Source: Sporosarcina ureae DSM 2281 (GTDB lineage: Bacteria > Bacillota > Bacilli > Bacillales_A > Planococcaceae). From it: a DNA stretch of 64,000 nucleotides. Where the stretch lies: assembly GCF_000425545.1 (NCBI RefSeq), contig NZ_AUDQ01000008.1, positions 83,705-147,704 of the forward strand. The letters are read 5' to 3'. The notes under the pieces are model-generated. The model made no database searches, was not told the DNA's origin, and worked only from the letters and a program-made list of their open reading frames with translations. Each line of letters opens with the position of its first letter. The first letter of the stretch is position 1. The position numbers were made by a program, and so were the translations under genes. Below are positions 3,581-62,389 of this stretch, in pieces.

Positions 3581-3876
3581 GGAAATCCCTCGTTTCTATA
3601 GTGTTACGTATAGTATACAAAAAAATCATACATTCAGTCTTGTATTCTTACTCCGTCTGAAATACCGCCCCCTTTTTAGAGTTAAACTTTACTTTCCTCT
3701 TTGCAACTCCTAAACCTCTATTAATGAACTCACAAAACGTATACATCCGCCTTAATTGACGAAACTTCCGGTCTGGTTTACACTTTTTAGTAAGTAACTC
3801 CTTCATATAGTATAAGGACAGAACCCTTATCTGTTGGAGGAGTTTTTCGACATGTATATAAAAAGGAGTTCATTGT

Positions 3877-59051: not shown

Positions 59052-59708
59052 CTATGCGGAATCTTCTGTACTACTGAAAAACTCTTCTTTTAATCGTTTT
59101 CCATAGGCTTGTCCACTTTCACCACGCTGCCTGGGAAACTCTTGCATCACAATTGGCAATACTCTTTCCCACAAAACATTCATCACATAGATATCTCGAT
59201 CAAATTGATAGTCCAGTTCATTTAGCGTTAATTGTAGCGATTTCGCATATCTTCGTTTTTCTGCATCCCAAATCGTCGAGACATTCTCTTTAATATATGC
59301 ATCTATCTCATCTTCGGTTACCGTAATTCCGTAAGCTTCTTCCGCAATATCTAAAGCATCTTCATAATGATCTGTTTGCTTCTCCGCGATACCTCTAAGA
59401 AATGGGGAAGAGTGCTCTTGCTCTGTCAGATTATTATTCACGCGTAAACGAAACTCTGTCTTATTTGTGGAAAACGATTGATCTAGCTGATTATTATGAA
59501 TTCCCGATTGGATAGATTTCAGCTCCTCTGCAATTTCCGGCATATCTTTCAGCACTTTTTCCACGGATTGATTCATCTGGGCGTAATCTATTCCTATTGT
59601 TTCAATCTTTTGTTGTTCCGAACTAGCCGTTTGTTTAATCAACAACGTCCCAGCAATCAAGACAGTAAAACAAATCATAATGAGGTGAAACCGATTGCGA
59701 GCAGTCAT
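59052..59708 (-). CDS. Membrane-anchored protein of unknown function
   Basis: The roughly 218-residue protein has one N-terminal hydrophobic helix (about residues 10-25, signal anchor or uncleaved signal) and a helical, charged outside domain. The segment A-Y-G-I-T-V-T-E-D-E-I-D-A-Y-I resembles the SurA/PrsA N-terminal chaperone helix (substrate-binding part without a rotamase domain), but this is weak. The start M-T-A-R-N at 59708 is nine bases after GGAG; two in-frame ATGs precede it. Confidence 0.65.
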   Translation of the reverse strand: MTARNRFHLIMICFTVLIAGTLLIKQTASSEQQKIETIGIDYAQMNQSVEKVLKDMPEIAEELKSIQSGIHNNQLDQSFSTNKTEFRLRVNNNLTEQEHSSPFLRGIAEKQTDHYEDALDIAEEAYGITVTEDEIDAYIKENVSTIWDAEKRRYAKSLQLTLNELDYQFDRDIYVMNVLWERVLPIVMQEFPRQRGESGQAYGKRLKEEFFSSTEDSA

Positions 59709-59818
59709 AGTCATTCGCTCCTTCATCTGTTAGGTCGCTCTAGTATGCCATAAGGGTTATGAAATATTTGTTGAAACTACTGATTATCCGTAAAAACTTT
59801 CCTTTATAATTCGACAAT

Positions 59819-59862: not shown

Positions 59863-60267
59863 TTAATGACGTGCAGTAGGTGTTTTTTCAATCATAAATG
59901 TTACAACTACGAATAAAGCAAAACTCACTAATAGCACGGTACCGCCTACTATATAGAATATGAGTGCGAATACTTCATTGACATTGAAGGGTTGCATGAA
60001 CTGTAACCACATACCCGCCGTTAAACCTATCGCACCGATAATCCCTGTCCAACCTTGCAATGTTAATAGCTTTCTAGCACGGACTCGGTAAATCTTGTAG
60101 AACACCCCCCACGAAAATACTGACAACCAACCTACAAGTAAAATATGTGCGTGAATGGGACGGAACGCGTATGAACCTGCACCCGCCATATGGGAACCGA
60201 GTACCGTTCCAATTAAACCGAAAATCGCCGCAATACGAATCAATCGTAAACTCCACTTTTCTTGCAT
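59863..60267 (-). CDS. Small four-helix membrane protein resembling a heme-copper oxidase subunit I segment
   Basis: The 134-residue protein has four membrane helices (about residues 9-28, 38-57, 69-90 and 100-126). Histidines sit in G-S-H-M-A-G-A-G and R-P-I-H-A-H-I-L-L-V-G-W, a pattern like helix II of NorB/cbb3-type oxidase subunit I, where such histidines bind heme. Full oxidases are four times longer, so this is a stand-alone module. It lies 75 bases after hssS, and its promoter has a perfect repeat of HssR-site form. I infer a heme-linked job such as heme sensing, storage or detoxification. The start follows AGGAGG. Confidence 0.7.
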   Translation of the reverse strand: MQEKWSLRLIRIAAIFGLIGTVLGSHMAGAGSYAFRPIHAHILLVGWLSVFSWGVFYKIYRVRARKLLTLQGWTGIIGAIGLTAGMWLQFMQPFNVNEVFALIFYIVGGTVLLVSFALFVVVTFMIEKTPTARH

Positions 60268-60315
60268 AAGATATTTCCTCCTGTCATCTTTCTACTACAA
60301 TTATCATAACACCTC

Positions 60316-60335
60316 AAGATGAACGGAAGATGAAC
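60316..60335 (-). promoter_or_regulatory. HssR-type direct repeat
   Basis: On the minus strand GTTCATCTT, two bases, GTTCATCTT (60335-60327 and 60324-60316). It ends seven bases before a TATGAT -10 (60308-60303) and so covers the -35 position, as expected for activation by an OmpR-type regulator. It lies between hssS and the four-helix membrane protein gene. Confidence 0.7.
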
Positions 60336-60341
60336 TGCCTG

Positions 60342-61721
60342 TTACAATTTAGGTAAATACACGATGAATGTCGTACCTATACCTAACTCACCGAGTACTT
60401 CTATACGGCCCTCATGAAGCCGTACCACTTGTTCAACAATAGATAATCCAAGGCCCGTCCCCTCTACTTCACGTGTTCTTGAGTGATCTTCACGATAAAA
60501 ACGGTCAAAGATTCGATTCTTTGTATCAGGTGAAAGACCGATTCCTGTATCTTTAATAGAGAAACAGATTACATGTTCCTGCTCAGTCAATCGGATATCG
60601 ATCGTTTCTCCATCCGGTGAATACTTCAGTGCATTCGACAATAAATTCTCCCATACTTTCTCAAGAAAAGCAGGATCCCCTTTAAACGTGATATCATCAA
60701 TTTCGAGCATGACCGACATCTCTTTTTCTTGAAATAACCATTGGAATTTCCGTACTGTTTCTCTCACTTGCTGATCAACTCGGAAGACTTTTTTCTGCAA
60801 TGGAGAGATTAGTTGATCGAGTGATGTCAGCAATAATAACTGCTTCGTCAACGTCGAGAGTCGTTCGGTTTCCGTTTGAATGATTCCTGCATAACGTATG
60901 CGTTCATTAGCGGGTAGCTCTTCATCCGATAACAAGTCTGCATAGCCTTTAATATTCAATAAAGGTGACTGAAAATCATGCGACACATCACTGACAAATG
61001 CCTTTCGAATCTGGTCGTTCTCACTCAAACGATCGACCATCTGTTGAAAGCTCATTGCAAGTTGCCCAATCTCATCACGTCGATCAATCGACAACTCACT
61101 CGTAAACTGCTCCTCACCTACCTTCTTAGTCGCTCTTGTCAATACAACAATTGGTGCAATCAGTTTGCGCGCAACGACAAGCATTGCGAGAATGCTGATA
61201 ATCGCCATGACAATGACCATACCACCAAGCAAATAGTGAATTTCAGTGAAAAGCATTTTAATATCTGGGCGCAAAAACAATGCATATATCTGACCATCGT
61301 ACATAAACGGTACACCTACTGTATTAGCTGACTCATTAGAGAAATATCCCGTCACGAACGTCTCCGCCCTTAGATCTCGCATGCCATGATAGACTTCGCC
61401 ATCATAGACTTTCTGAATCGCTTCATCCTCAAGGTTATCATCGCGAAACGCTTCACCATAGATAGTTGAATCACCTGAAGGCGGTTTGACGAGTAGTTTA
61501 TAACCCGTACTAGCAAGCATATCGAAGTATGCATGTAAATCTATACCGTTATTTGCTTCAATGAACAATGCAATTTGCTCAGCAACTCGAACATTCTTTG
61601 CATCATTCTCTTCTTTCAAGTAACGGTGATAATATGTATTAACGGAAAGAAACGCTAGAATCGCACTCACCAGCATGATTCCAACTGTTAAAACGAGAAA
61701 CTTTCCGTACAGCGACTTCAT
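60342..61721 (-). CDS. hssS: Heme sensor histidine kinase HssS-like
   Basis: The 459-residue kinase has membrane helix 1 (about 7-28), an outside sensor domain (30-163), helix 2 (about 165-187), HAMP, phospho-acceptor His248 in V-S-H-D-F-Q-S-P and an ATPase domain (N-L-L-S-N-A-L-K-Y, D-T-G-I-G-L, G-T-G-L-G-L). The sensor contains Y-G-E-A-F-R-D-D-N-L, V-Y-H-G-M-R-D and F-V-T-G-Y-F-S-N with N-T-V-G-V, which match from memory the S. aureus heme sensor HssS well beyond general kinase similarity. It overlaps hssR by four bases. No hrtAB efflux genes are in the window. Confidence 0.85.
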   Translation of the reverse strand: MKSLYGKFLVLTVGIMLVSAILAFLSVNTYYHRYLKEENDAKNVRVAEQIALFIEANNGIDLHAYFDMLASTGYKLLVKPPSGDSTIYGEAFRDDNLEDEAIQKVYDGEVYHGMRDLRAETFVTGYFSNESANTVGVPFMYDGQIYALFLRPDIKMLFTEIHYLLGGMVIVMAIISILAMLVVARKLIAPIVVLTRATKKVGEEQFTSELSIDRRDEIGQLAMSFQQMVDRLSENDQIRKAFVSDVSHDFQSPLLNIKGYADLLSDEELPANERIRYAGIIQTETERLSTLTKQLLLLTSLDQLISPLQKKVFRVDQQVRETVRKFQWLFQEKEMSVMLEIDDITFKGDPAFLEKVWENLLSNALKYSPDGETIDIRLTEQEHVICFSIKDTGIGLSPDTKNRIFDRFYREDHSRTREVEGTGLGLSIVEQVVRLHEGRIEVLGELGIGTTFIVYLPKL

Positions 61722-62389
61722 TCCGAAACCTCAAGCTTATAACCAACACCACGTACCGTTACAATTTTCACCTGATTCGTAAGCTTCTCAAGCTTGTCGC
61801 GTAAGCGTTTGATATGTACACTCAACGTCTGCTCATCCCCTTCATAATCAAAGCCCCATACACGTTCTACTAACACTTCTCGTGTAAACACCTGACTATG
61901 ACGCGAAGCTAACACTGACAACAATTCAAACTCCTTTAATGGAAGTAGTAATGACTTTTTACCAAGCACTACTTCATAACTCTGTCTATTAATCAATAAC
62001 GGACCGACTTGAATCATCCGGTCGACAGCTTTGTCATAACGCCGTAAAATTGCATGAATCCTGAACAATAACTCTTTTGGTTCAAACGGCTTTACCAGAT
62101 AATCGTCTGATCCAGCCAAAAAGCCTCGCTCCTTATCTTCCATCTCACCTTTAGCCGTCAACAACAACACGGGAATCTCCGTATCTTCACGAAGCTTCTT
62201 TGTCAGCGTATAACCGTCCATACCTGGCATCATCACATCTACCACCGCTAAATCTGGCCACTCTCTATCGACTACCTTAAGCGCCTCTAGCCCATTCATT
62301 GCCTTCACAACGGTATACCCCGCCTGTCGCAAATGAATACTAACTAACTCTAAAATATGTATATCATCATCTACCACCAAGATCTTCAT
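61718..62389 (-). CDS. hssR: Response regulator HssR-like (OmpR family)
   Basis: The 223-residue regulator has a receiver domain (V-D-D-D at 6-9, phospho-acceptor Asp51, K-P-F near 105) and an OmpR winged helix (E-F-E-L-L-S-V-L-A, W-G-F-D-Y-E-G-D-E-Q-T, V-H-I-K-R-L-R-D-K-L, V-R-G-V-G-Y). D-K-E-R-G-F-L-A-G-S-D-D-Y and W-G-x-D-Y-E-G-D-E fit HssR. It lies in a coupled operon between yihY and hssS (four-base overlaps on both sides), with GGAGG before the start. Its likely binding site is the repeat at 60316-60335. Confidence 0.88.
   Translation of the reverse strand: MKILVVDDDIHILELVSIHLRQAGYTVVKAMNGLEALKVVDREWPDLAVVDVMMPGMDGYTLTKKLREDTEIPVLLLTAKGEMEDKERGFLAGSDDYLVKPFEPKELLFRIHAILRRYDKAVDRMIQVGPLLINRQSYEVVLGKKSLLLPLKEFELLSVLASRHSQVFTREVLVERVWGFDYEGDEQTLSVHIKRLRDKLEKLTNQVKIVTVRGVGYKLEVSE

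Follow-up and report, generated by a model that had tools for sequence, protein, structure and literature searches.

The HssRS two-component system and the HrtBA pump form the textbook heme-detoxification circuit of Gram-positive bacteria, with the pump as the described target of the regulator. In Listeria, a repeat in the hrtAB promoter has been described as an HssR site (PMC6305404). HsmA of C. difficile, described as a heme-binding membrane protein without heme export activity, is under the control of HsmR (PMC12670364, PMC11442138). We analysed a 64-kb stretch of the Sporosarcina ureae DSM 2281 genome (contig NZ_AUDQ01000008.1; hereafter the window) in which an HssR-type box stands between hssS and a 134-aa open reading frame (ORF) on the minus strand (59863..60267), for which we use the working name oxi. 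We document the box, its conservation, the promoter geometry, the gene neighbourhoods and the sequence relationship of oxi to other membrane proteins with an H-x-H motif. Overall, we consider it probable that the repeat is an HssR operator and that HssRS switches on oxi, a predicted heme-binding four-helix membrane protein, together with a heme exporter.

The box and its promoter

Both direct reading and pattern search give GTTCATCTTCCGTTCATCTT as the minus-strand sequence at 60335..60316. The box is GTTCATCTT CC GTTCATCTT, followed by gaggtgt, TATGAT (60308..60303), AGGAGG and the ATG at 60267. It begins 6 nt downstream of the hssS stop codon (60344..60342) and its end is 7 nt from TATGAT and 48 nt from the oxi ATG; oxi starts 74 nt past hssS. 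The initial annotation had placed a repeat with a 2-bp gap, 7 nt ahead of TATGAT, directly past hssS and before a 134-residue ORF, and our reading confirms this arrangement. The features of the locus are the following:

60316..60335, minus strand: proposed HssR-type operator GTTCATCTT-CC-GTTCATCTT (sequence reading, pattern scans, genus conservation)
60303..60308, minus strand: –10 element TATGAT, 7 nt 3' of the box (sequence; TA...T at +7 in relatives)
60277..60282, minus strand: ribosome-binding site AGGAGG (sequence reading)
60342..60347, minus strand: TTGTAA element, separated from the box by 6 nt and formed here by the final Leu codon plus the stop codon of hssS (fixed offset in relatives)
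59863..60267, minus strand: oxi, 134-aa membrane protein with invariant H39-x-H41 and four predicted helices (ORF, alignments, predicted structure)
60342..61721, minus strand: hssS, sensor histidine kinase, 459 aa (HAMP/HisKA/HATPase)
61718..62389, minus strand: hssR, OmpR-type response regulator, 223 aa (Response_reg and Trans_reg_C)

With up to 3 mismatches allowed, the window holds a single match to the pattern, and it is this box, an exact one (0.36 expected in shuffles). It is also the sole exact match in the 3.32-Mb genome. At 2 mismatches the whole genome gives 3 matches versus 3 for the reversed-pattern control; because such matches are no commoner than in the control, score alone sets apart the exact site only, and weaker sites are not proven by it. 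As judged from sequence, conservation across the genus promoters settles that the box is real.

For this comparison, 67 oxi promoters of the genus were aligned (70 loci minus the duplicates L072-L074), with one genome, G048, left out as its contig ends in oxi. The box is present in all 67, with 0, 1 and 2 mismatches (of 16) in 35, 29 and 3 promoters, respectively; at the threshold of 2 mismatches or fewer, 1 of 3,350 shuffles does as well. A pattern scan found the box in G048, the 68th genome, too, and across the genus it returned 130 matches versus 15 with the reversed pattern. The hrtB promoters behave similarly: all 34 that were read (out of 48 genus orthologues; the other 14 were not fetched) carry the box, with 0, 1 and 2 mismatches in 2, 20 and 12 (1 of 1,700 shuffles reaches 2). 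The search for the repeat in related genomes that the initial annotation had proposed thus found it at both promoters.

The geometry of the promoter is also conserved. A TA...T pattern starts 7 nt 3' of the box in 67/67 oxi, 33/34 hrtB and 11/11 unlinked oxi promoters. When hexamers were scored without tie preference, this offset was the sole best TATAAT-like one in 33/67 oxi and 22/34 hrtB promoters, and other offsets scored better in 5/67 and 4/34. On the other side, TTGTAA starts 12 nt 5' of the box with 0-1 mismatch in 65/67 oxi, 28/34 hrtB and 10/11 unlinked oxi promoters, versus no more than 12/67, 3/34 and 1/11 at each of the other offsets between 7 and 30. Only the hrtB and unlinked oxi sets are independent in this respect, because TTGTAA overlaps the hssS stop codon in linked loci. 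The element is possibly a degenerate third half-site of the HssR box.

Boxes of the same form occur in three genomes that we assigned as Staphylococcus-like by gene order, where hssRS is divergent from hrtBA: GTTCATATT-GA-GTTCACATT, GTTCATATT-CA-GTTCATATA and, twice, GTTCATCTT-CA-GTTCACATT. Between the end of the nearest box and hrtB lie 47-48 nt, so that form and start distance are as in the window. This match, with the conservation at genus oxi and hrtB promoters, upholds the proposal of an HssR-type operator. One Staphylococcus-like hrtB promoter region (L245, G461:C7) has two boxes 108 nt apart, at 3747 and 3639 on the minus strand.

We also scanned named genomes, which gave 486 stretches encoding oxi relatives; the best 80, many of them Sporosarcina, were analysed. 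One locus had too little upstream DNA. Among the other 79, the box was found at 2 mismatches or fewer in 61 (and in 0/1,580 shuffles) and was lacking in 18. hssS lies directly 5' of oxi in 54 of the 80. At the 21 loci with no hssS match of at least 200 bits in the DNA examined, 11 have the box, 9 have none and 1 was too short. This speaks against read-through from hssRS as the sole cause. Since the box is kept at 11 of the 20 scorable oxi loci away from hssS, the control of oxi by HssRS, likewise proposed initially, appears well supported.

The oxi protein and its sensor

oxi was found in all 68 genus genomes searched, in 228 of 261 family genomes (E <= 1e-3; 7 of them weakly, E > 1e-10) and in 55 of 348 class genomes (E <= 1e-8). 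Class genomes outside the family with a strong oxi match (E < 1e-30) encode an HssS-type sensor in 18 of 20 cases, compared with 170 of 348 overall. The S. ureae genome has a single match to this sensor type. At seven loci from other families, the regulator encoded next to hssS and hrtB is 45-61% identical to HssR. The heme pocket of S. aureus HssS is described as F25, R94, F128 and R163 (PMC11237747); in our alignment, F24, R93 and F127 of HssS correspond to the first three.

H39-x-H41 is invariant among the oxi sequences aligned. The best structural alignments put the predicted model (134 aa, four helices) on residues 377-529 of the R. sphaeroides oxidase and on the matching part of others; we take these residues to be helices IX-XII. 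Seven of eight oxi relatives match COX1 within 313-407, below the Pfam cut-off, and the H-x-H of oxi was aligned to those relatives. No single match is decisive, and together they point to a resemblance between oxi and the four C-terminal helices of heme-copper oxidase subunit I, a region whose H-x-H bears heme ligands. The likeness of the oxi histidines to those of a heme-copper oxidase, noted initially, would thus stand for subunit I; their assignment to helix II is rejected in view of the structural alignments and the COX1 matches of the relatives at 313-407, and the H-x-H of the helix X region would take its place.

Among small solved proteins, styrene oxide isomerase (PDB 8pnu) scores best against the predicted model. 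DUF2871 (PF11070) was matched by 8 of 37 oxi-family members (best E 0.033), under the Pfam gathering cut-off, and one relative, L167, scores just over it (27.7 versus 27.4); no lead came from the papers listed for this domain. A PDB sequence search with oxi gave no match, a further PDB search gave three chance matches and no oxidase, and an NCBIfam search of oxi members gave chance matches only.

The S. ureae genome encodes an oxi relative of 125 aa with the stretch THAHINLLGW (L161:2715-3092, G000:C9), 71 nt past an ORF that is MarR-type by eye. This arrangement is reminiscent of C. difficile hsmR-hsmA; the same-strand list showed no MarR-like ORF 5' of any of the remaining seven relatives. 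In another genome, a box (L087, G018:C1:2517524-2517543) stands 5' of a 62-aa frame that looks like what is left of a second oxi. Downstream of oxi in the window, a 224-aa ORF at 59052-59726 has no Pfam or NCBIfam match.

A varying pump, a proposed mechanism and its rivals

In the same genome, a one-mismatch box (fixed positions) at G000:C8:81699-81718 lies 47 nt 5' of a 343-aa permease with an ABC ATPase directly downstream. The sole PDB match of the permease is 7w78_B (E 2.6e-16), titled putative ABC transport permease, which we take to be HrtBA of Corynebacterium. Judged by sequence, the pair is hrtBA, 62 kb from hssRS. Elsewhere we observed the gene runs hrtB-hrtA-hssR-hssS-oxi, hssR-hssS-box-oxi-MMPL and MMPL-hssR-hssS-oxi; the MMPL protein of one Sporosarcina locus matches Pfam PF03176 (E 7e-110). 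In 67 genus genomes (again leaving out G048), MMPL lies within 600 nt 3' of oxi in 20/20 of those without an intact hrtB orthologue versus 5/47 of those with one (Fisher test, P-value 9e-13). Both cases foreseen initially, oxi as a target instead of HrtAB or alongside it, therefore occur in the genus. On the HssS tree, the two pump traits change 9 and 7 times, with only 6 independent pairs on supported branches; the swap is a strong pattern built from few independent events and is not significant after phylogenetic correction. In the DNA examined around oxi at the 80 named loci, HrtB is near 17, MMPL is near 30 and both are near none. The MMPL proteins encoded by S. ureae are all distant ones (26-33% identity). 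A new observation is that oxi is constant across the genus while the pump, HrtBA or MMPL, varies.

Further boxes were seen near other genes. One-mismatch boxes in L080 (G004:C31:21815-21834) and L084 (G012:C6:43084-43103) lie 43 and 30 nt, respectively, 5' of the gene for an MFS-type transporter, DHA2-like by eye and at least 489-490 aa long. G012 has no hrtB orthologue and has MMPL beside oxi; similar sites occur in G039 and G044. The transporter is possibly a third type of HssR-controlled exporter. In L082 (G010:C17:56000-64000), three boxes lie ~1.2 kb apart; two of these precede genes for proteins of 332 and 325 aa that look alike by eye. In L089 (G020:C1:2522600-2526600) a box precedes a 366-aa ORF with a stretch similar to these proteins. 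The boxes may reflect a local expansion of an HssR-type regulon. A CobW-like gene with a 2-mismatch box (L004) was rejected: by eye there is no –10 element 7 nt past the box, and we judged the match to be chance.

We propose that membrane heme would activate HssS, as reported for S. aureus, and that HssR, once phosphorylated, would occupy the direct repeat at the –35 position and drive the promoter lying 7 nt further on, so that oxi and the exporter would be transcribed in response to heme. In heme-copper oxidase subunit I, the C-terminal third is a four-helix unit; by its predicted fold, the oxi product would be that unit as a free-standing protein. H39-x-H41 of oxi may ligate heme b, possibly at trimer subunit interfaces as in styrene oxide isomerase. 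Most likely, oxi would trap surplus heme in the membrane and either retain it or pass it on to a pump. By species, that pump would be HrtBA (here 62 kb off, with its own box), an MMPL-family transporter encoded next to oxi or perhaps, in a few genomes, the MFS-type one. More tentatively, many Bacilli may share a two-part HssRS system of heme disposal, in which oxi is the constant, trimeric single-repeat carrier and the exporter is exchangeable; oxi would then serve as donor to both HrtBA and MMPL, and oxi-linked MMPL would be a new class of heme exporter.

Several findings speak against this proposal. The eighth oxi relative, L168, aligned to COX1 at 5-144 (E 0.016), which does not favor the helix X placement. 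The pump swap has a P-value of 0.25 after phylogenetic correction, with the two traits going opposite ways in 2 to 3 pairs, the same way in none and without difference in the rest. The fourth pocket residue, R163, is His162 in HssS, as it is His in 25 of 29 aligned sequences. At some loci, 17-24 nt separate the end of an hssS match from oxi, and the box was not found there.

It is unlikely, to our estimate, that oxi is under HssRS control as a signalling accessory, a heme- or redox-reading partner that tunes HssS by feedback and neither stores nor carries heme. The position of hssS directly upstream of so many named oxi genes would suit such a role, as would the presence of oxi in every genus genome regardless of pump, but the box is retained at oxi loci without nearby hssS, and oxi often runs into the MMPL pump gene, which better fits heme handling. 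We also find it improbable that oxi acts as an enzyme in the heme stress response (in the detoxification of peroxide, nitric oxide or epoxide/lipid products, for example), with a heme cofactor as in styrene oxide isomerase. That best-scoring small solved protein is indeed described as an enzyme with a catalytic ferric heme (PMC11374702), yet its catalytic residues were not aligned to oxi, and the loci examined showed no pathway genes next to oxi, the recurrent neighbours being a heme sensor and pumps. There is still less reason to expect that the two-component system is related to HssRS but responds to a different ligand (HitRS-like, for cell-envelope stress, for instance), which would place oxi in an envelope-stress response. 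The substituted pocket residue, the reported similarity of HitR and HssR repeats (PMC3968170) and the lipids that MMPL pumps are described as often moving (PMC7516205) favor it; against it are the three retained pocket residues, the single HssS-type sensor of S. ureae, the same box at hrtB and the gene run that hrtBA can share with hssRS-oxi. Finally, expression of oxi by hssRS read-through only, with the repeat due to chance or unrelated, agrees with the short distance between the genes and with the boxless loci above, but is very improbable given a box in 67/67 promoters with fixed –10 spacing and boxes at oxi genes with no hssS nearby.

Comparison with known systems

Among the papers listed in an open-access library, none linked HssRS with an oxidase-like protein, HssRS or heme efflux with an MMPL pump, or heme-copper oxidase with styrene oxide isomerase. 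We regard the oxi system as a new variant of HssRS-HrtBA as described for Staphylococcus, Bacillus and Listeria. It has in common with that circuit an HssS-type sensor with three of four pocket residues, an HssR-type repeat and an hrtBA pair with the same box. It differs in that hrtAB is the described target, whereas here there would be a second, more constant one, oxi, with an alternative MMPL pump in relatives, and in that hrtBA is 62 kb from hssRS. If our proposal is true, heme detoxification in many Bacilli gains a further, more constant component and an alternative pump, which would account for how species that have HssRS and lack HrtBA manage; the constancy of oxi beside a changing pump points to a component so far absent from the picture of this familiar defence against heme toxicity.

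The nearest functional precedent for oxi, compared by description only, is HsmA, also a heme-response membrane protein proposed to hold heme; its control is of the MarR type, unlike the two-component system here. MmpL3 and MmpL11 of mycobacteria are, like the oxi-linked pumps, MMPL transporters, and they are tied to heme in published accounts; these describe heme uptake and lipid export, whereas MMPL here would act under a presumed heme-detoxification regulator. Styrene oxide isomerase, a trimeric heme protein with heme ligand H58 and the further residues N64, D95, N99 and Y103, also matches the predicted oxi model and may share its four-helix fold. Heme-copper oxidase subunit I (cbb3 type) resembles oxi in fold and in the sequence region of helices IX-XII with H-x-H; it has twelve helices in three four-helix units, whereas oxi has one unit and lacks the rest of the active site. 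If true, oxi would be a single-repeat relative of the heme-copper oxidases and may show how their three-repeat core arose, and the presumed heme-responsive operator before so tiny a protein makes the questions of the circuit and of oxidase origin directly testable.
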